Shown: in pieces, positions 2,054 through 17,902 of the stretch | Position numbering within the stretch: position 1 is the stretch's first letter | Layout of the letters: the number at the start of each line of letters is the position of its first letter | IMG/VR virus record: IMGVR_UViG_3300046834_000044 | Location: 1-42,764 of that record | Source of the DNA: a virus | Direction: 5' to 3' (one strand) | Length of the DNA: 42,764 nucleotides | Position numbers and translations under genes: made by a program | The notes under the pieces: model-generated | The model's input: only the letters and a program-made list of their open reading frames with translations | The model's database searches: none | Told to the model about the DNA's origin: nothing

Positions 2054-4543
2054 CTAGCCGTGATAGGACATCTTCCGGATTCGTCGACCACCGGCTGCGA
2101 TCTCCGGTCCCTCCACCACCCCGGGGGTCGCAGCGAGGGATGCTCGAACGTCCTCCCAGTATTCTTTGCGGCTGCGGGCGTCCATGGCCTGTTGCAGCTC
2201 CCGGGGGCTGAACTCCTTCCCGGGGTTGGCCTGCATCAGCTCCAGGAGCTTCGTTCCCAATTCGTAGATCCGGCCTGTCCGCTCGTCTCTGATCACCACC
2301 TCGGCGATCTGCTCGTGGACCCGGGCGACAGCACGGTTCTTGCCCCGGCGGGCGTGGTCATCGCGTTCTGCCTCGTCGAGTGCTTTCTGGCAGATCGACC
2401 GGGTCTGGTCGCTGATCCTCATGACGATCCGGGCGAGTCGCCAGTCATCGTCGGTGACCTCCAATCTTCGATCCAGGAACCCCAGCATCGCGGCGACCTT
2501 CAGTTGTGTCAGGAACGAGTGCGAGTCCATCCCCCCGTGTTCTGAGGCCAGGTTCTCCTCGCGGGCGTCGATGATCTCGTTCTCGACCTGGCGACTGACT
2601 GGGATCTCGTACCGGGGTTTCTGTTCGACGGGTTCCGGCTCGTCCTTCTCACCGCGCTGCGGACCTTCCGGCAACCAGACGTCGTATTCGATCTGCGGCG
2701 GCTGCCCGGCGTAGAGCGGGGGTTGCAGCTTATCGGTCCGTCGCAGGAGATTCGGATCGTGTACTGGCAGCCACAGGAACCGCTGCGGCAGCCCGCCGTC
2801 TGCGTCCTGGAGCAGAACCCCCGACCGTGCGGGCTGGATGCCGACCACAGCCGACGCACGGTACCGGTGAGCCGCGACCGGCCTCCTGCGCTCTTTGGCT
2901 GCGTACTGCGCTCCGAGCCGTTCGCCGCTGTACATCTTGCGCAGGTGGGGGATCAGCGCCGATCCGGTCATCTCGGCGTGTGCCTTCATCGTGTCGATTT
3001 CCGGCACGTAGAAGAACGCCACGTCGTTGTACTGCACGGCCCCCAGCTTGGGTGTGGACTCTGTGAACGTGGCATCCACGCCCTGTGGGGTGCCGACCTC
3101 CTCTACCGGGAACCGCCCCTCACAGTCGAGGTATTCCAGGGCGACCGACCACGCCGCCCCTTTGCCCTTGCCGGACGGACCGACCAATCCCACCAGCATG
3201 TTCAGGCTCGCGAGCCCACCGACGATCCGTGGCAACACGACGTGCGGGCCGACCCTGCACGAGGCGAGGGCGAGGACCGACCCGAGCATCGCCCACGGCG
3301 ACACCCGGCGCTGCCTGGCCAACCATCTGATGTCGCTGAGGTATGACCTCTCCTGCCAGAACGTGGTTTCTATCGGCAGGAGCCCCGTCCCGGTGCTGGC
3401 GGGGGCCGGGGGGGTGTCGGTGCGGGCCGGGGGCGTCTGATTCGCGGGTGGACCTCCCAGGGGTGTCGTCGGTGCCACGGGGGCGGCTGGCCGTGCCCGC
3501 TGCGGCATCATGGCGCTTCTGATTGTGTTGGCTGCCGCGCGGAGATCGCCCCCGTGGTTCATCCAGGCGTAGAGTTGCCCAGGGCTCAACGCCCGATCGG
3601 TGGGCAGCTCGGTGCTCGAACTGAAGCTGTAGAACACCTGCCGACCGTCCGGCATGGTCGCGATGTTGCCCGACACTCCGTCTTTCTGGTCTTTGCCCGG
3701 ACGCACGAAGTATCGTTTATCTTGGTGTTCGTAGGCGTAGGACCACCCGGCAGCCAACAACATCGACTCCAGGTCGTATTGCCGACCGTACCAGTCGAGC
3801 GGGCTCTCCTCGCCCACCGCGTCATCGAATCCTCGCAGCGGGGCGACCAGCTTCGACGCTCCGGGGCCACGGGGCGGGCCCGGAGCGGGCGGGGGTGCGT
3901 ACGTGCGGGGTGGGGCCGTCTGATTCGTCCCCGTGGACGCGGGACGGGTCTTCTGGGCCACGCCGGGGGCGGCTGCGATCGTCTCCCACAGCGGTGTGGG
4001 CCCGAGCAGGTCAGGGACGAGCCCACGAATCGTGTAGCCGGGGTTGCCGGGGGCGAGAATCCAGCCGTGGTGGGCACGCAGGTCGACGCCCCACACCTCA
4101 TCGGCATTCTGTTTGTTGTGCGCCGCGCTCCCTGCGAACCACAGGTGACGGCCCCCGCTGGGAGTCACCACCAACATCGACTTCTCCGGATTGATCGTGC
4201 CGCTGTCCAGCAACGCCGTCAGCTGCTGGATTCCAGGCTTGCCCTCCGAGACGTCGAAGTCCAACACGTCGGGTCCATCCTGGCATCCGCACCCACAGGC
4301 GAGGCCTGTCTTGATCCCGACCCGCGCCCCCGCGTCCCACTTCGATTTCCACCCGAGGATCGTCTGCGGGTTGGTTGTTGCCTGCCGTTCCCAGCCCTTG
4401 CCCATCCACGGCGCTTTGGTCGTGGGATCCGCCGGGCCTACAGCGAACCCCCGCGATGCCCAGACCAGGGCAAGGCTAAGGGGCGTGTCGGCGATCGCCA
4501 GGGCTTCTTTAATTGGCATGAGCTGATTGCTGCTAAGGTCCAT
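2054..4543 (-). CDS. Bifunctional primase-polymerase / helicase (PrimPol fusion)
   Basis: This 829-residue replication protein has an N-terminal archaeo-eukaryotic primase/polymerase domain (about 20-195). The metal-binding pair is in DVLDFDV (D95, D97), the SGGRHLWF histidine motif is near 129-136 and GVDLRAHHGWILAPG is near 152-166. A Pro/Ala-rich linker leads to a central region (250-340) and an ATPase domain of the DUF3987/RepA-like helicase type, with Walker A GPSGKGKG (455-462) and a Walker B-like FFYVPEID. Family knowledge says it primes and probably extends DNA and unwinds the fork. It is the only polymerase-like gene in the window. The start is the ATG with GGAGGGAAG just upstream; the gene is followed by the iteron region. 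Confidence 0.88.
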   Translation of the reverse strand: MDLSSNQLMPIKEALAIADTPLSLALVWASRGFAVGPADPTTKAPWMGKGWERQATTNPQTILGWKSKWDAGARVGIKTGLACGCGCQDGPDVLDFDVSEGKPGIQQLTALLDSGTINPEKSMLVVTPSGGRHLWFAGSAAHNKQNADEVWGVDLRAHHGWILAPGNPGYTIRGLVPDLLGPTPLWETIAAAPGVAQKTRPASTGTNQTAPPRTYAPPPAPGPPRGPGASKLVAPLRGFDDAVGEESPLDWYGRQYDLESMLLAAGWSYAYEHQDKRYFVRPGKDQKDGVSGNIATMPDGRQVFYSFSSSTELPTDRALSPGQLYAWMNHGGDLRAAANTIRSAMMPQRARPAAPVAPTTPLGGPPANQTPPARTDTPPAPASTGTGLLPIETTFWQERSYLSDIRWLARQRRVSPWAMLGSVLALASCRVGPHVVLPRIVGGLASLNMLVGLVGPSGKGKGAAWSVALEYLDCEGRFPVEEVGTPQGVDATFTESTPKLGAVQYNDVAFFYVPEIDTMKAHAEMTGSALIPHLRKMYSGERLGAQYAAKERRRPVAAHRYRASAVVGIQPARSGVLLQDADGGLPQRFLWLPVHDPNLLRRTDKLQPPLYAGQPPQIEYDVWLPEGPQRGEKDEPEPVEQKPRYEIPVSRQVENEIIDAREENLASEHGGMDSHSFLTQLKVAAMLGFLDRRLEVTDDDWRLARIVMRISDQTRSICQKALDEAERDDHARRGKNRAVARVHEQIAEVVIRDERTGRIYELGTKLLELMQANPGKEFSPRELQQAMDARSRKEYWEDVRASLAATPGVVEGPEIAAGGRRIRKMSYHG

Positions 4544-10659: not shown

Positions 10660-10865
10660 TCGGTTGGCTGCCGCGCCATCCGCTGTTCGAGATCCCACCC
10701 GTACGTTCCGTTTCTGATCGACTCCGACTGTTCGTCCATGCTCCAGTCGAGCTGTTGCTTGATCAACCACATCAGCTCGACGCTCGGTCGTCGCTTCCCG
10801 TCGAGCAGACGACTGATCGTAGCATCCGACCTGCCGACCAGACGGGCCAGCTCGGACGCGATCAC
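10656..10865 (-). CDS. Small helix-turn-helix (XRE/Cro-like) protein
   Basis: This 69-residue protein contains a Cro/C1-type HTH: SELARLVGRSDATISRLLDG, followed by KRRPSVELMWLIKQQLDW. It starts at a GTG overlapping the TGA of purB. It is the only XRE-type regulator in the window and is co-transcribed with purB, so it may control the purB/purZ divergent region. It is too small and too embedded to look like a lysogeny repressor. Confidence 0.75.
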   Translation of the reverse strand: MIASELARLVGRSDATISRLLDGKRRPSVELMWLIKQQLDWSMDEQSESIRNGTYGWDLEQRMARQPTE

Positions 10866-12094
10866 GGCTTAGCCCAATGCCGGAGGTACCAGGTCGGGTC
10901 GGTCGGCTGCCGGTCGGTCACGATCGGGTGGAGGAGGCACTGCATCAGGGCGTGCTCTCGTGCCGCTTTGGCGTCCATCCCTGAGCTTATCGCCTCGAGG
11001 GTTACCTTGTGCACAGACAGCTCGCTCTCGTGTTCGTGCAGCGCCAGTTCTGCTCCCTGCCCCAGTTCGAACGACTCCAGGAGCTTCACGGTCTCTCGTT
11101 CCACGTGAAACAGGACGTGCCAGAGGTCGGGAACCGCGACCCGTTCGACGCAGCTGTTGCTGATGTCTCGTTCGAGCCACAGGTCGAGGGGCTGGAGACT
11201 GGCGGCGTACGCGGCAGCCAACCGCTGCATGCCCGTGATCTGCTCCGCCCGGATCGGGTTGGTCTTGTGTGCCATCGACGACGAACCGACCTGGCCTGCC
11301 GGGTGGACGAGCTTGCCCTCCCCGAGCAGCAACATCAACCGGATGTCCATCGCGATCTTGGCACAAGCCGACACCACCTGGGCTGCGTCGGTTGCCCAAT
11401 GCGCCAGCCGGTCACGCGGCGCGATCTGAGAGGCTCCCTGCCCGCAACTGACCAAGCCCAACTCAATCGCGACCTTGGACTCGACCCACGGGCCGTTGTG
11501 TGCGTAATTGCCGACCGGACCGCTCGTCTTGGCCACCTGCATCTCGCCGATCGCGCCTTGAAGCCGTTCGAGCGCGGGGGACAGCAGCGCGTTCCAGTGC
11601 GACGCCCGCATCCCCATCGAGATCGGCTCGGCGGGTTCGCCGTGAGTCCGACCCACTACCATCTGCTCGCTCTTCACCCACCGATCAACAGCCTGCCGGA
11701 GGTTGCAAGCCAGACGCCATGCCCTCGGCCCCAAAGACCGGAACCGCATGCCCTGCGCGGTGTCGACGATGTCGGACGAGGTGAGGCCGTAGTGGATCCA
11801 CCGGCCGTGCGGTTCTCCGTACCAATCACGCATGAACCGCACGAACGCGGCGACGTCGTGTCGATCTTCAGCCTCGTACGCGGCCAGGCCGGTCAGAGTC
11901 CAGGGATCGTCGAAGTCGGGGTGCACGGCCAACAGCGGCTTCGTCTGCTCCGCGCGTTCCTGCTTGTCCGGGTCCTTGCCGCACTGCTCGATCTGCGCTC
12001 GGGCGACCGCTCGTTCGACCTGCCACCACGCGTTGTACGTCCACTGTCTCGACCAGAGAGCCGTCACATGGGAATCTCGGTACCTGTCGTCCAT
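10862..12094 (-). CDS. purB: Adenylosuccinate lyase
   Basis: This 410-residue protein is a full fumarase/aspartase-superfamily lyase. Visible PurB hallmarks are RHDVAAFVR (78-86), GLTSSDIVDT (103-112), the catalytic-histidine segment RTHGEPAEP (149-157), the flexible-loop signature GSSSMAHKTNP (270-280) and LERDISNSCVER (307-318). PurB removes fumarate from adenylosuccinate; in phages with 2-aminoadenine DNA the same step converts the PurZ product to 2-amino-dAMP. Known Z-phages generally rely on the host enzyme, so a phage copy divergent from purZ is notable. The ATG at 12094 with GAGGAG upstream is chosen over a longer start that would cover the shared promoter region. Confidence 0.92.
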   Translation of the reverse strand: MDDRYRDSHVTALWSRQWTYNAWWQVERAVARAQIEQCGKDPDKQERAEQTKPLLAVHPDFDDPWTLTGLAAYEAEDRHDVAAFVRFMRDWYGEPHGRWIHYGLTSSDIVDTAQGMRFRSLGPRAWRLACNLRQAVDRWVKSEQMVVGRTHGEPAEPISMGMRASHWNALLSPALERLQGAIGEMQVAKTSGPVGNYAHNGPWVESKVAIELGLVSCGQGASQIAPRDRLAHWATDAAQVVSACAKIAMDIRLMLLLGEGKLVHPAGQVGSSSMAHKTNPIRAEQITGMQRLAAAYAASLQPLDLWLERDISNSCVERVAVPDLWHVLFHVERETVKLLESFELGQGAELALHEHESELSVHKVTLEAISSGMDAKAAREHALMQCLLHPIVTDRQPTDPTWYLRHWAKP

Positions 12095-12149
12095 CTTGGC
12101 TCCTCGTCGGGGTGCGGGGGGATCGTTGTGGCCCCATGGGACCATGGCT

Positions 12150-12180
12150 CTTGCCTGGCTGTCAAGGGCTGTGGTAGAGT
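12150..12180 (+). promoter_or_regulatory. Divergent purZ/purB control region with promoter
   Basis: On the plus strand: TTGCCT (12151-12156), 18-bp spacer ending TGTGG, then TAGAGT (12175-12180), about 48 nt upstream of the purZ start. The -35 lies within CTTGCCTGGCTGTCAA, whose reverse gives TTGACAGCCAGGCAAG, matching the elements at 5480 and 19562 and giving a perfect -35 box pointing to purB. One site may therefore set both transcripts. Confidence 0.6.
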
Positions 12181-12228
12181 ACCGTAATCCCCAGCCGGAC
12201 GGCCGGGGCACACACCCTAGGGGGATGA

Positions 12229-13278
12229 GTGACCAACGTCATCGTGGTCGTCGGAGCGCAGTTCGGCTCTGAGGCTAAGGGGGCCATCACTGGTCGGTTG
12301 GCTGCCGATCTGGGCCCGCACGACGTGAACATCCGGGTGGCTGGCCCGAACGCCGGACACACCGCCTACGACCCGGACGGTCGGGAATGGAAGCTCCGCA
12401 CGATTCCGGTCGGAGCGGTCACCAGCAGGACCTGCCAGCTCCACCTGGCTGCCGGTTCGGAGATCGACCCGCTTGTTTTGGCGACTGAGATGTCCATGTT
12501 GGAGGAGGCTGGTCACGACGTCACCCGGCGGCTGACCATCCACCCGTCAGCCACGATCCTCGAACCCCGGCACCAACGGCAGGAGTCCGAGGCCGGGATC
12601 GTCGGCCGGGTGGGCTCGACCGGCAAGGGCATCGGCGCAGCTCGGGCCGAACGGGTCATGCGGACTGCTTTCACCTACCGGGAGTTCGCTGCGGGCAAGC
12701 CCTCGGCGTCTGCTCTGATGAGCGAGTCGGGGCCGTTCGATCTGGACGGCGTGGGCACGGTGGTCATCGAGGGAACCCAGGGCTACGGGCTCGGCCTGCA
12801 CACCCGGTTCTACCCGCAGGTGACCTCGTCCGACTGCCGGGCGATCGACTTCCTGGCGATGGCGGGGATCTCGCCCTGGGACGATCAGGTTCTGGACCTC
12901 CAGGTCATCCTGGTCGCCCGGACCTTCCCGATTCGGGTGGCGGGCAACTCGGGCCCGCTGAAGGGTGAGTCGACCTGGGCGGACCTCGGGCTGCCGGAGG
13001 AACGGACCACGGTCACTAACAACATCCGCCGGGTCGGCACCTGGGACGCACAGCTTCTCGACGAGGCGATCCGGGCAAACGGGGGCGGCAACTGGTCGCA
13101 GAACGTCACGCTCGCCATCACGATGCTCGACCAGCTCTTCCCCGAGAGCGCGGGCAAGACCGAAAGCGACCTCCCTGCCGACGCCCGCGAATGGCTGGTC
13201 GAGATCCAGGACGCGTTCGAAACCACCATCTCGTACGTCGGCACCGGCCCGACTACTCACTTCGAAGTGGAGCTGTAA
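12229..13278 (+). CDS. purZ: PurZ: 2-aminodeoxyadenylosuccinate synthetase (Z-genome pathway)
   Basis: This 349-residue PurA homologue is shorter than bacterial PurA (about 430). The N-terminal loop reads GAQFGSEAKG, with serine at position 14 where PurA has the catalytic aspartate of GDEGKG; that change is the known mark of PurZ. Other conserved parts are NAGHT (41-45), STGKGIG (130-136), EGTQGYGL (181-188) and VTSSDC. PurZ joins aspartate to dGMP to make the precursor of 2-amino-dAMP (base Z). The start is a GTG at 12229 preceded by AGGGGG; it has its own promoter, and its TAATG junction couples it to the MazZ-like gene. Assignment as PurZ rather than PurA rests on the Ser, the length and the neighbours. 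Confidence 0.88.
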   Translation: MTNVIVVVGAQFGSEAKGAITGRLAADLGPHDVNIRVAGPNAGHTAYDPDGREWKLRTIPVGAVTSRTCQLHLAAGSEIDPLVLATEMSMLEEAGHDVTRRLTIHPSATILEPRHQRQESEAGIVGRVGSTGKGIGAARAERVMRTAFTYREFAAGKPSASALMSESGPFDLDGVGTVVIEGTQGYGLGLHTRFYPQVTSSDCRAIDFLAMAGISPWDDQVLDLQVILVARTFPIRVAGNSGPLKGESTWADLGLPEERTTVTNNIRRVGTWDAQLLDEAIRANGGGNWSQNVTLAITMLDQLFPESAGKTESDLPADAREWLVEIQDAFETTISYVGTGPTTHFEVEL

Positions 13279-14476: not shown

Positions 14477-15406
14477 ATGATGTTCGTCTACCTCGCCAAC
14501 CCGATCGACCAGGCGGACAGTCTGCTCGGCATCGACAACATCACACACACCTTGAGCACCTGCGGGATCTCCTGGTACCACCCGGCTACCGCCTTCCACC
14601 TTAACAACATGTGTGGCCCCCTGGACCTGCGGGCGATCGACCGGATCAACCAAGAGGCACTCAGCCGCGCCGATGCGTTGTTGGTTTGGCTGCCGCGTGG
14701 TGTGCCGACCCTCGGGGTCCCGGTGGAGATCGAAACCGCGCTCCAGGCCAACACCCCCACCGTGATCCTGACCAACATCGACCGGAGCGTCCAGTTGACC
14801 TCCTGGGAGTCGAGGGGCGCGTCGGTCATCCGGTGGGACCACACGATCTCACAGCAGTGGGAGAACAACCCGAAACAGCTGCTCGCGCTCCTCCGGGTTC
14901 AGCCGGAGACCATCGGTCTTTACGACGTCGCGGCAGCCAACCACACCAAGCAGGTCGCGTTGATGCGGCACCCCGGCCCGAAGACCGATGACCTGCAGAT
15001 CAAGCTGGACCCCCGGGCGATCATGCCGAGTCGGGCGCACGACGATGACGCTGGGCTCGACCTGGCGCTGTTCCGCAATGAGAAGCTGGAGGCCGGAGAA
15101 TGCCGGATGTTGGCGACGGGGATCAAGGCAGCGCTTCCGGCTGGCTACTGGGGTTTGATCATCCCTCGGTCGTCCACCTGGGTGAAGTATCAGGTCGACG
15201 TTCGGCTGGCCGTCATCGACGCCGGGTATCGTGGCGAGCTTATGGTCCAGGCGCACAATCAAAGCACGCGGCCAATCACGTTCGTCGCCGGAACTCGGCT
15301 GGCGCAGTACGTGCTGCTGCCGACGTGGCTCGGGAAGCCGACCGAGGTGTCGGAGCTGCCGGAGCACACTCGGGGCGAGAAGGGCTACGGGAGCAGCGGC
15401 AGCTGA
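14477..15406 (+). CDS. Nucleoside deoxyribosyltransferase-like / dUTPase fusion
   Basis: This 309-residue protein has two domains. Residues 1 to about 145 resemble nucleoside 2-deoxyribosyltransferases: MFVYLANPIDQADS, WYHPATAFHL, AIDRINQEALSRADALLVWLP and VEIETALQANTPTVIL. Residues about 165-309 hold the five dUTPase motifs: DDDAGLDL, PRSSTW, VIDAGYRGELMV, GTRLAQYVL and RGEKGYGSSG. The dUTPase half converts dUTP to dUMP and keeps uracil out of DNA. The first half may hydrolyse or exchange bases of deoxynucleotides; in this operon it could act on unwanted dNMPs, which is speculation. Starts at ATGATG (14477 or 14480) after AAAGGGA. Confidence 0.85.
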   Translation: MMFVYLANPIDQADSLLGIDNITHTLSTCGISWYHPATAFHLNNMCGPLDLRAIDRINQEALSRADALLVWLPRGVPTLGVPVEIETALQANTPTVILTNIDRSVQLTSWESRGASVIRWDHTISQQWENNPKQLLALLRVQPETIGLYDVAAANHTKQVALMRHPGPKTDDLQIKLDPRAIMPSRAHDDDAGLDLALFRNEKLEAGECRMLATGIKAALPAGYWGLIIPRSSTWVKYQVDVRLAVIDAGYRGELMVQAHNQSTRPITFVAGTRLAQYVLLPTWLGKPTEVSELPEHTRGEKGYGSSGS

Positions 15407-15532: not shown

Positions 15533-15736
15533 TCAGGAGATTGCGTCGCGCAGGGTGGGGAGGGTGCGGGTTTCGCCTGCGCGTGCGGTCCGGCCGATGG
15601 TGTAGGCTGCGCTGCGGTCGCCCTCGGCCAGGGTGCGGATGGCGTTTGCGTCGGCCTCCGCCTTCGTCTTGCCCTCGATGGTCGCGGTGATGGTCTCGTC
15701 GGTGCCGAGGAAACGGAATTCGATGATTTTCGCCAT
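15533..15736 (-). CDS. Small hypothetical protein
   Basis: This 67-residue protein begins MAKIIEFRFLGTDETITATIEG, then has a helix (TKAEADANAIRTLAEGD) and a short basic tail. Beta-alpha arrangement; no family recognised. It is a monocistronic unit with its own promoter (15785-15814), a CRP-like site and an AGGGAG ribosome site shared in sequence with neighbouring units. Confidence 0.6.
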   Translation of the reverse strand: MAKIIEFRFLGTDETITATIEGKTKAEADANAIRTLAEGDRSAAYTIGRTARAGETRTLPTLRDAIS

Positions 15737-15819: not shown

Positions 15820-15835
15820 TGTGGCACGTGTCACA
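15820..15835. promoter_or_regulatory. CRP-like site 1
   Basis: TGTGGCACGTGTCACA fits TGTGN8TCACA, the CRP/GlxR half-site pattern with one G in place of A. It is 5 bp upstream of the -35 of the promoter at 15785-15814. Confidence 0.5.
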
Positions 15836-15843
15836 TAAACTCC

Positions 15844-15869
15844 CGGCCCCGGGGGGCTCCCGGGGCCGG
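15844..15869. terminator. Terminator after the NADAR gene
   Basis: An 11-bp perfect stem (CCGGCCCCGGG with CCCGGGGCCGG) and 4-nt loop follow the stop at 15881, preceded on the minus strand by the same TGAACACACGACAAC block seen at the previous terminator. Confidence 0.7.
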
Positions 15870-15880
15870 TTGTCGTGTGT

Positions 15881-16321
15881 TCAGTTTGCGCCGCGCCGGT
15901 TCTCCTCGCGGATTTTCATCAGTAAATTTCCGAGGGTGTTCTTGCCCTTGCCCTTGCATGCTTCGTGCCGGGTGCATTGTCCCCAAAAATTGTCGTGCCA
16001 AATGTTTCCCTCGATAATTTGCGCGTCGCCAGTTTCCTCAAGCAAATTGCGGAGGGTTGCGTCGCGGAATTTGCGCCGCAAAATTTCCTCCATGATATTT
16101 ACTTTGAGCAATTCCCAGTCTTCGCGGAGGGTGCATCGTTTGCCTGCGTGCTTGGCCTGCCCCGGCTTCGGTCGGGAAAGGATGTGGGCCCTTTCCTCGC
16201 GGCTCTCGGTCTTGGCCGCCTGGAAAATGTGCTCGGCTGTTTTCCCGTTGGCTTCCGTGTGGAAATTGCTGAGGGGGGCCCATTTGCCGGTGAGGCTCTT
16301 GATTGTTTCGCTCTCTCTCAT
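15881..16321 (-). CDS. NADAR-family protein (possible anti-DarT1 glycohydrolase)
   Basis: This 146-residue protein is a clear NADAR (YbiA-like) domain: PLSNF (16-20), TAEHIFQAAK (28-37), PGQAKHAGKRC, METFIX-like IMEEILRRKFRD helix, ETGDAQIIEGNIWHDNFWG (96-114) and GKNTLGNLLMKIRE (127-140). NADAR enzymes cleave ADP-ribose from guanine in DNA and act as antitoxins to DarT1; orphan phage copies have been shown to counter DarTG1 defence. It has its own strong promoter, and the ATG lies only six bases after a TAAAAT box, so its mRNA looks leaderless. Its codon use is more A/T-rich than the neighbours, suggesting recent transfer. Confidence 0.82.
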   Translation of the reverse strand: MRESETIKSLTGKWAPLSNFHTEANGKTAEHIFQAAKTESREERAHILSRPKPGQAKHAGKRCTLREDWELLKVNIMEEILRRKFRDATLRNLLEETGDAQIIEGNIWHDNFWGQCTRHEACKGKGKNTLGNLLMKIREENRRGAN

Positions 16322-16327
16322 ATTTTA

Positions 16328-16357
16328 ATTTTACCATAGGTATCCGCCCCGGGGGAA
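16328..16357 (-). promoter_or_regulatory. Promoter of the NADAR gene (leaderless type)
   Basis: On the minus strand: TTCCCC, 18-bp spacer ending ATGG, TAAAAT, a second TAAAAT, then ATG. The -35 lies inside the hairpin at 16344-16371. Confidence 0.65.
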
Positions 16358-16371
16358 TCCCCTCGGGGCGG
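16344..16371. terminator. Hairpin with embedded -35 box
   Basis: CCGCCCCG and CGGGGCGG form an 8-bp stem with an inner GGGG/CCCC pair. It follows the stop of the 16392-16673 gene and carries the -35 of the NADAR promoter in its upper part. Confidence 0.6.
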
Positions 16372-16380
16372 TGGGCTTTG

Positions 16381-16396
16381 TGTGAATCGGATCACA
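16381..16396. promoter_or_regulatory. CRP-like site 2
   Basis: TGTGAATCGGATCACA has perfect TGTGA and TCACA half-sites. It lies 23 bp upstream of the NADAR -35 box and overlaps the stop codon of the upstream gene. Confidence 0.5.
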
Positions 16397-16673
16397 GGTT
16401 CCAGGTCTGCGGGGTGTCGATGCCCTCTGCCCGGCAGGCCTTCGCCAGTTCGGCGTGCAGCGCGTTGTATTTGGCGTGGGCCCTGGTCTCGCGGGTCGAT
16501 TGGATCGGCTTGAGGTTGGCAGCCTTGGCGATCCGGTAGGCGCGGTGGGCCTTGATGGCGGCGGTGGTGAGGCGGGCGACGGGGCTCTTGGCGGGCTTGG
16601 TCTTCGGGGCCTTGAAGGACTCGCAGAGGGCGTTCGCGGCGGCGGTGTTGACGTGAAGGCAGTTGGTGTGCAT
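16392..16673 (-). CDS. Small basic hypothetical protein
   Basis: This 93-residue protein begins MHTNCLHVNTAAANALCESF and is rich in Ala, Lys and Arg, with long predicted helices (ARLTTAAIKAHRAYRIAKAAN and TRAHAKYNALHAELAKACRAEG). The charge suggests nucleic-acid contact, but no family is recognised. The ribosome site CGGGAG lies before the ATG at 16673; the promoter is at 16729-16758. Confidence 0.55.
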   Translation of the reverse strand: MHTNCLHVNTAAANALCESFKAPKTKPAKSPVARLTTAAIKAHRAYRIAKAANLKPIQSTRETRAHAKYNALHAELAKACRAEGIDTPQTWNL

Positions 16674-16728
16674 TTCGGGCTCCCGGGGCGTTTGGGGTTT
16701 GGGCTGTTTCCCTCTCCCCTATATAATA

Positions 16729-16758
16729 AGTTTACCATAGGGGTGGGGGCTCGCATAA
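16729..16758 (-). promoter_or_regulatory. Promoter of the 16392-16673 unit
   Basis: On the minus strand: TTATGC, 18-bp spacer ending ATGG, then TAAACT. A CRP-like site starts 5 bp upstream of the -35. Confidence 0.65.
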
Positions 16759-16763
16759 TCCCC

Positions 16764-16779
16764 TGTGGCGTACGTCACA
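16764..16779. promoter_or_regulatory. CRP-like site 3
   Basis: TGTGGCGTACGTCACA, TGTGR-N6-TCACA pattern with a CGTACG palindromic centre, 5 bp from the adjacent -35 box, exactly the spacing seen for site 1. Confidence 0.5.
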
Positions 16780-16898
16780 CAGATTCGAGCGCGGGCGTCC
16801 ACGGGGCGGGCCCGCCGGGGCCAGGGGTGTGTACGCACCGGGGGCTGCGTGCGAGGTCGCGGACGGCCACGCGGGGCGGGCTCCCGGGGGTACGGGCT

Positions 16899-16923
16899 CG
16901 CCCCCGGCGGGGGGCCGGGGGCG
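16899..16923. terminator. Terminator after the 16940-17479 gene
   Basis: A 9-bp stem (CGCCCCCGG with CCGGGGGCG) just beyond the stop codon on the minus strand. The rest of the 265-base gap (16674-16939) holds this hairpin, the promoter and CRP-like site 3, and further GC-rich inverted repeats, but no gene that I can support. Confidence 0.5.
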
Positions 16924-16939
16924 GTGGGTTGCCCTGCGA

Positions 16940-17479
16940 TCAGTTGACCAGAGCGAACTTGCCCTGGGGCACGGCGACCGTGTTGCCCTTCTTGTCCTCG
17001 TAGACGAAGTCGCCGGTGACGGGGCCGATGAAGCCCTCGTAGGTCCAGCGGCCAACCTTGGCGGTCACGGGGGCGGGAGCGGGGGCCGGGGCCTCGACGG
17101 GGGAGTCGGCCTTCTTGCCCTTGCGGTTGGCTGCCGCCTCGCGCTTCATGGCCTTGGCGATCCCCACGGCCAGCTGCGCCGCGACCTTGGCCGCGAAGGC
17201 GTCGCTGATGGTCTGGGCTGCGTGGACCGCGCCGAGGAAGGTCCGGATCACGCCGCCCTGCGCCAGCCGGATCTCCTCGCCGTTGATCTCCGCCCGGACC
17301 AGGAAACCCGCCAGCTTGGCGTCGTGGCCCATCGCGAAGGTCCGGAAGGTCGACTGGGTGCACTCGGTGGTGTAGGTCTCGTAGTAGTCGCCCGGGTCGG
17401 CACCTTCGGGGACGTCGGCGGTCCAGGTGCCGAACTCGAAGTTGACGCAGGAGCAGCGGGCCATGATCTTGGCGGACAT
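16940..17479 (-). CDS. GHDAKL-module protein A
   Basis: This 179-residue protein begins MSAKIMARCSCVNFEFG. It shares with the 18668-19441 protein an N-terminal module: a CxC pair, then a TEC-x3-STFRTFAMGHDAKLAGFLVRAE segment, then a stretch with GAVHAAQTISDAFAAK. The Cys and His residues could form a zinc site. A basic Lys/Ala-rich linker leads to a small beta domain (KVGRWTYEGFIG to VPQGKFALVN), which also has a counterpart in the paralogue. Function unknown. It is a single-gene unit with its own promoter, and AGGGAG before the ATG. Confidence 0.6.
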   Translation of the reverse strand: MSAKIMARCSCVNFEFGTWTADVPEGADPGDYYETYTTECTQSTFRTFAMGHDAKLAGFLVRAEINGEEIRLAQGGVIRTFLGAVHAAQTISDAFAAKVAAQLAVGIAKAMKREAAANRKGKKADSPVEAPAPAPAPVTAKVGRWTYEGFIGPVTGDFVYEDKKGNTVAVPQGKFALVN

Positions 17480-17535
17480 TTTGTTCTCCCTGGGGTGAGG
17501 GGGCGGGGGGTTTGTCCCCCCTCCGTTCTATGTTT

Positions 17536-17565
17536 ATTTTACCATACCCCCCGGGGGGAAGGAAA
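17536..17565 (-). promoter_or_regulatory. Promoter with -35 in a hairpin loop
   Basis: On the minus strand: TTTCCT, 18-bp spacer ending ATGG, then TAAAAT. The TTTCCT box falls wholly in the 8-nt loop of the hairpin at 17549-17576. Confidence 0.65.
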
Positions 17566-17576
17566 TCCCCCCGGGG
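17549..17576. terminator. Hairpin enclosing the -35 box
   Basis: A 10-bp perfect stem (CCCCGGGGGG with CCCCCCGGGG), loop 17559-17566. It follows the 17589-17792 gene and would end its transcript while carrying the next promoter's -35 in the loop. Confidence 0.65.
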
Positions 17577-17577
17577 C

Positions 17578-17593
17578 TGTGATCTACGTCACA
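17578..17593. promoter_or_regulatory. CRP-like site 4
   Basis: TGTGATCTACGTCACA matches the GlxR/Crp-type consensus TGTGA-N6-TCACA. It overlaps the stop codon of the 17589-17792 gene and lies 12 bp upstream of the next -35. Confidence 0.55.
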
Positions 17594-17792
17594 CGATCCG
17601 CTGCAGGTCGGCCATCGCGTGAGCTTCAGCGGCCTCGTCAGCCGTCATCGCCCACGTCGATTTAACTCCGACGTCCTCGCGGTCCGACCAGGCCCACGCC
17701 TTGTCCTGCGCGTCGTCGGTGTCGGTAGCCTCAACCAGAACCGCCATGTCCTCGGCCTCATCGAATTCGAGGACGACCACGAAATCCGCCAT
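17589..17792 (-). CDS. Small acidic hypothetical protein
   Basis: This 67-residue protein begins MADFVVVLEFDEAEDMAVLVEATD and continues as an acidic helix with several Trp and Asp residues (AQDKAWAWSDRED). Alternating strand and helix; possibly a small ferredoxin-like fold or DNA mimic, but unassigned. Its leader (CATAGAACGGAGGGGGGA ... CACCCCAGGGAG) is nearly the same as the leader of the 16940-17479 gene. Confidence 0.6.
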   Translation of the reverse strand: MADFVVVLEFDEAEDMAVLVEATDTDDAQDKAWAWSDREDVGVKSTWAMTADEAAEAHAMADLQRIV

Positions 17793-17846
17793 GTCGTGCT
17801 CCCTGGGGTGGGGGCGGGGGGCCGATCCCCCCTCCGTTCTATGAAA

Positions 17847-17876
17847 ATCATACCGCATCAACCTCCGCCCCCATAA
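17847..17876 (-). promoter_or_regulatory. Divergent promoter, minus arm
   Basis: On the minus strand: TTATGG, 18-bp spacer ending GCGG, then TATGAT. Its -35 is 10 bp from CRP-like site 5. Confidence 0.65.
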
Positions 17877-17886
17877 CTATGAATCG

Positions 17887-17902
17887 TGTGATGCGCGTCA
17901 CA
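17887..17902. promoter_or_regulatory. CRP-like site 5, between divergent promoters
   Basis: TGTGATGCGCGTCACA, perfect half-sites. It is exactly 10 bp from the -35 box on each side (17871-17876 and 17913-17918), so one dimer could control both. Confidence 0.6.

Follow-up and report, generated by a model that had tools for sequence, protein, structure and literature searches.

NADARs from four contexts, namely DarT1-linked, sigma70-linked, E. coli YbiA and phage T4, hydrolyse guanosine-ADP-ribose in vitro (Cihlova et al., PMC11125620), and NADARs also reverse the guanine ADP-ribosylation made by ScARP, both on DNA (PMC11125620) and on RNA. T4 gp30.3 and YbiA, the latter encoded in a chromosomal LexA-controlled operon, are active on this substrate in vitro but fail to rescue DarT1 toxicity (PMC11125620). 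In the NADAR of E. coli C7, residue K115 is required for rescue from DarT1 toxicity and dispensable for catalysis, and the residues contacting ADP-ribose have been named for the eukaryotic NADAR of P. nicotianae (8bau, 189 aa; PMC11543638). Phage-borne orphans that neutralise DarTG1 are reported by Johannesman et al. 2025 (Nat Commun 16:1598), as cited in PMC12548467. AdfB of phage ICP1 is likewise a phage-encoded antitoxin mimic against DarTG, but it binds DarT directly and is not a NADAR (PMC11481870).

The stretch of DNA analysed here (the window) spans an entire IMG/VR virus record (G000) of 42,764 bases, derived from environmental DNA. It contains a phage-borne NADAR gene without a cognate toxin:

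15881..16321, minus strand: orphan NADAR-domain protein of 146 aa, intact, with an ATG start, assigned by PF08719, an AlphaFold2 model and a fold match

The match to PF08719, the Pfam NADAR family, reaches 80.6 bits (E 2.1e-22, residues 24-140) and exceeds the gathering cut-off of 35.1 bits; the protein also matches PHROG 1017, a family of unknown function (E 2.9e-35). Relatives are encoded in 428 phage records, and the nearest one in the collections (locus L002 of record G001) has 75% amino acid identity. Between these two genes dN is 0.19 and dS 1.01 (dN/dS about 0.18), and 59 of the 108 differences fall on third codon positions, which indicates purifying selection on the NADAR gene. The NADAR gene noticed in the preliminary description is confirmed, its resemblance to the family being well outside chance. 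The gene had also been described as A/T-richer than its neighbours, and its GC content of 55.6% is indeed the lowest among the 36 genes compared (mean of the 35 others 65.1%, z -5.1), a composition consistent with recent acquisition.

The AlphaFold2 model, built on a 51-sequence alignment, has a mean pLDDT of 92.7 and adopts the NADAR/YbiA fold. Among the solved structures compared, also by Foldseek, Z of at least 2 was obtained only for YbiA (2b3w; Z 17.0, 1.9 Å over 139 residues, 35% identity) and the ADP-ribose-bound P. nicotianae NADAR (8bau; Z 15.6, 2.6 Å over 142 residues), and for no non-NADAR family. The phage protein shares with YbiA the catalytic Glu/Asp/Trp set and the free-standing domain. 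In the profile alignment the P. nicotianae residues E43, K50, K75, R79, W89, R93, E125, D130 and W133 correspond to E30, K37, K57, K61, W69, K73, E104, D110 and W113, so that the ADP-ribose site, judged by alignment, is intact, its contacts being kept or conservatively replaced (K61 for R79, K73 for R93). The contact columns are near-invariant over 77 NADARs with the exception of those of K61 and K73. All recognisable NADAR motifs had been attributed to the protein; this holds for the catalytic and ADP-ribose residues (E30, K37, E104, D110, W113), but the WGD motif reads WGQ, and the hairpin preceding the catalytic E30 lacks six of the usual residues, a deletion common to the window protein and L002 only. 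A Cys-rich insertion after W113 (15956-15976, residues 116-122) is partly degenerate in the window protein and complete, CxCxxC-like, in some phage relatives. Assignment to the His-type phage NADAR class (PMC11543638) is ruled out by Glu104.

Residue K57 occupies the alignment column of 8bau K75 and C7 K115. The column holds lysine in 72 of the 77 NADARs, Ala in YbiA and Gln in T4 gp30.3, a very divergent protein on a very long branch (21% identity, with Ser at the E104 column) whose alignment is uncertain. Since the lysine is this common, K57 is compatible with an antitoxin role and no proof of it.

A profile search of the whole window record, of uncalibrated sensitivity for DarT1, detected no DarT (PF14487), nor was PF14487 matched in any of the 53 NADAR-bearing phage or viral records (the window record and 52 others). 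No DarT toxin adjoins the NADAR gene, the neighbouring ORFs lack any Pfam or PHROG match, and none of the adjacent genes could be recognised as belonging to riboflavin or NAD metabolism; the gene thus stands alone, as had been proposed. Elsewhere, the NADAR gene of Enterobacter phage EC151 (L008, 1075-2417) adjoins a queuosine tRNA-ribosyltransferase-like gene, and QueC lies above its cut-off in 5 of the 53 NADAR records, a count drawn from NADAR records only, and the 7-deazaguanine link considered from it was set aside. On a Curtobacterium plasmid (L108, 755-6744) the NADAR gene is lined up with genes for PRPP synthase, TerD, nicotinate phosphoribosyltransferase and NUDIX proteins.

The accessory position of the gene, also part of the preliminary description, is borne out by the variability of its slot. 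Three records (G413, G414 and G415) encode PurZ proteins 59-61% identical to that of the window and have a backbone in common with it (PurZ, the dUTPase fusion described below, and ORFs 16940, 18668 and 20400), yet NADAR is absent from them, both at the slot and throughout the whole records, whereas G001 carries it in the same slot. NADAR is therefore accessory here, having been either acquired within the branch of the window and G001 or retained by that branch alone.

The type of phage is indicated by two further genes:

12229..13278, plus strand: PurZ (2-aminoadenylosuccinate synthetase; phrog_1211, E 8.6e-90), with Ser14 replacing the catalytic Asp of PurA
14477..15406, plus strand: fusion of an NDT-like part and a dUTPase, DmtZ-DutZ-like (dUTPase PF00692, E 7e-23)

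Ser14, a replacement typical of PurZ0, is invariant across a 9-protein PurZ alignment. Along its length the fusion can be aligned, at 30% identity, with the dUTPase gene of BrotherBLo, a Wayne-type phage, DmtZ-DutZ being phage Wayne's own protein (PMC12884076). From Ser14 and the fusion, the phage is probably of the PurZ0 Z-genome kind, though with a Prim-Pol and with no DpoZ or polymerase I recognised among the ORFs scanned, a subset from a record that may be incomplete. The remark that the genome may carry Z was thus a reasonable one, judged from sequence. The Prim-Pol type primase/polymerase (PF09250) lies at 2054-4543. A Lyase_1 family protein (PF00206, E 1.7e-26; 10862-12211) adjoins PurZ and is a candidate for a phage-encoded adenylosuccinate lyase of the Z pathway, a step that has been assigned to the host (PMC12884076). 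Relatives of PurZ, terminase and primase point to hosts that are probably actinobacterial.

On the minus strand, the NADAR gene is framed by the following elements:

16381..16396, minus strand: CRP/GlxR-like palindrome TGTGATCCGATTCACA of an enriched site class, overlapping the stop codon of the upstream gene
16344..16371, minus strand: G+C-rich hairpin CCGCCCCGAGGGGATTCCCCCGGGGCGG between the operator-like palindrome and the -10, found by direct reading, with an equivalent in L002
16328..16338, minus strand: extended -10 promoter TATGGTAAAAT, found by direct reading, with the hexamer TAAAAT at 16333-16328 and the same layout in L002
15843..15869, minus strand: intrinsic-terminator-like hairpin directly after the NADAR stop codon, its stem with 11 G-C pairs
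15820..15835, minus strand: CRP/GlxR-like palindrome TGTGACACGTGCCACA of the unit that comes next (ORF 15533-15736)

By direct reading the extended -10 TGGTAAAAT ends 6 nt upstream of the NADAR ATG, so the expected transcription start is the A of the ATG and a leaderless mRNA is predicted. The layout is TATGGTAAAAT-TAAAAT-ATG in the window and TATGATAAAAT-AAAAAT-ATG in L002 at identical spacing; the predicted leaderless layout is hence conserved in one close relative, in agreement with the leaderless promoter of its own previously ascribed to the gene. The terminator-like hairpin would make NADAR a one-gene transcription unit, in a terminator-hairpin scan that as a whole gave no enrichment over shuffles. 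Leaderless units seem habitual in this cluster, as the layout TATGGTAAAAT-TGTATT-ATG is found in G415, a record without NADAR (L595, minus-strand site 4163 of the reverse-complemented stretch). A T7-like promoter, considered from TATAGGGGAG at neighbouring genes, was dropped in favour of the conserved extended -10; the subset of ORFs scanned contained no recognisable phage RNA polymerase.

CRP/GlxR-like palindromes precede several minus-strand genes of the NADAR cluster and match the CRP/GlxR-type consensus, TGTGA-N6-TCACA. In the window the pattern TGTGAYNNNNRYCACA is matched 6 times where 0.05 matches are expected, and in L107 a looser palindrome pattern is matched 7 times where 0.06 are expected, palindromic sites counting on both strands in each case. 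Palindromes of the form TGTGA-N6-(T/C)CACA lie upstream of TATGGTAAAAT-type extended -10s of several small genes (15820-17902, L107, L593-L596), with 43-61 nt between the palindrome centre and the end of the -10 and often a G+C hairpin after the palindrome; related palindrome/promoter units are also present in G413-G415. The palindromes suggest a common regulation of the cluster, perhaps through a host CRP/GlxR-type protein.

Since NADARs of four contexts are active on guanosine-ADP-ribose, the window protein most likely hydrolyses it too, and the protein is likely to be a guanine de-ADP-ribosylase and counter-toxin. The most plausible role is to keep phage DNA safe from a guanine-specific ADP-ribosyltransferase of the host. 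A host enzyme would ADP-ribosylate guanines of the phage DNA (or RNA); the NADAR, expressed from its own leaderless promoter and acting as an ADP-ribosyl-guanine hydrolase of the YbiA-like class with catalytic Glu104, would strip the ADP-ribose off, and replication of the phage could continue. We hold this explanation to be probable, with moderate confidence; against it count the six-residue deletion before E30, which could alter substrate handling, the failure of T4 gp30.3 and YbiA, although active in vitro, to shield cells from DarT1, and the lack of DarT-NADAR neighbours in the survey of Actinomycetes given below.

The preliminary description went further and named a DarT1-type defence as the target, an interpretation that is supported in part. 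The family, the lack of a toxin partner, the accessory position, the low GC and the leaderless layout are borne out, and the presence of K57 speaks for DarT1, but nothing singles out DarT1 among the guanine-specific ADP-ribosyltransferases (others being of ScARP/scabin type or YarT), and DarT1 is one candidate among several. As a narrower form of the favoured explanation, a specific anti-DarTG1 factor that rescues phage replication in DarTG1-bearing hosts is a tentative reading. It finds a precedent in the phage orphans of Johannesman et al. 2025 as they are cited, antitoxin-like enzymes without a toxin for which anti-DarTG1 activity is reported, while the window NADAR is known from its sequence. 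The general statement that phage orphans neutralise DarTG1 stands for those orphans and fails for T4 gp30.3, a phage NADAR equally without toxin and active on guanine-ADP-ribose that gives no rescue (PMC11125620). K57, equivalent to the lysine essential for DarT1 rescue in C7 (PMC11543638), is missing from the two non-rescuing proteins, T4 gp30.3 and YbiA, but is not diagnostic given its conservation, and the catalytic Asp arrangement linked to DarT1 (C7 D171) is not evident in the window protein, which has the Glu arrangement instead. Among 296 genomes of Actinomycetes, a host class that is itself deduced from relatives, DarT occurs in 20 and NADAR in 68, and around each DarT a stretch of about 1.5 kb was free of NADAR; the missing pairs weigh little against a DarT1 link, since PF14487 may miss DarT1. 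For three of the actinobacterial DarT matches, comparison to solved structures retrieved DarT chains such as 7omv in two cases and none in the third.

Another narrower form of the favoured explanation, possible but well short of probable, makes the NADAR a counter to non-DarT guanine ADP-ribosyltransferases (ScARP/scabin- or YarT-type) or a general repair enzyme of ADP-ribosylated phage DNA or RNA. ScARP, whose product on DNA and RNA is reversed by NADARs, is a Streptomyces enzyme, and relatives of the window phage infect actinobacteria, but the actinobacterial host of the window phage is itself a deduction. Known scabin-type enzymes are, moreover, thought to be secreted. A metabolic N-glycosidase of the YbiA/RibX kind, serving riboflavin intermediates or NAD salvage and not protecting DNA, is unlikely. 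The match to TIGR02464 (riboflavin-intermediate N-glycosidase) amounts to 66.1 bits and stays below the curated equivalog cut-off of 73.7, and the lack of recognised riboflavin or NAD genes beside the predicted one-gene unit speaks against such a role, although the NADAR of the Curtobacterium plasmid does lie amid NAD-salvage genes, with nicotinate phosphoribosyltransferase, PRPP synthase and NUDIX as its company. The YbiA-like protein of phage DLP4 complements the swarming of E. coli ybiA (PMC6469090), and by analogy a metabolic or lysogenic-conversion role of the window NADAR is conceivable. That it excludes superinfecting or competing phages is very improbable, as its similarity to the NADAR family anti-phage protein NF053876 (E 4e-16) yields 58.6 bits against a curated cut-off of 240.

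Protection of guanine, the explanation we favour, bears on the Z genome as well. The exocyclic N2 amino group, at which DarT1 modifies guanine, is also present on 2-aminoadenine, and guanine-directed ADP-ribosyltransferases might therefore also modify Z, with the window NADAR cleaving ADP-ribose off both G and Z as a Z-genome adaptation; we regard this as improbable. NADAR is found in none of the 42 other PurZ phage records (12 isolate records and 30 viral contigs, among them the three backbone-sharing relatives), which argues against a general link between NADAR and Z and, set against 2 of 49 random contigs, led to the rejection of NADAR as a general trait of Z phages. The isolate records with a PurZ match number 13, and the one not counted, a 207-kb Acinetobacter record, likely represents host purA beside hisZ.

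In the opposite direction, PF00709 is present in 10 of the 53 NADAR records, 7 of these with Ser at the catalytic position, and in none of the 49 random contigs. Outside the window lineage it occurs in 8 of the 45 viral contigs with NADAR versus 0 of 49 random ones (Fisher p 0.002), or in 5 of 45 versus 0 of 49 when only PurZ-like PF00709 is considered (Fisher p 0.02); at 70 kb or more the enrichment has p 0.017. These comparisons are confounded by larger contigs and by the choice of NADARs similar to that of the window, both of which may explain the enrichment. The association thus disagrees by direction, being nil from PurZ to NADAR and enriched from NADAR to PF00709. The five other NADAR-bearing viral contigs whose PurZ-like gene has the catalytic Ser are G002, G005, G007, G008 and G019 (loci L191, L192, L189, L193 and L187).

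NADAR is a known family and counter-defence of this sort is known from phages, of which the window gene is a further example; if neither protection of the Z genome nor prediction from K57 holds, it would be one more accessory anti-toxin gene. As a free-standing NADAR with a lysine equivalent to K115, the window protein is a natural one with which to ask whether this residue predicts antitoxin competence in free-standing NADARs. An intact orphan NADAR in a probable Z-genome phage is, furthermore, a combination missing from the 42 other PurZ records checked, and makes the window phage a test case for whether modified-base genomes still have to be guarded against toxins that ADP-ribosylate bases, and whether 2-aminoadenine is itself a possible target of ADP-ribosylation.
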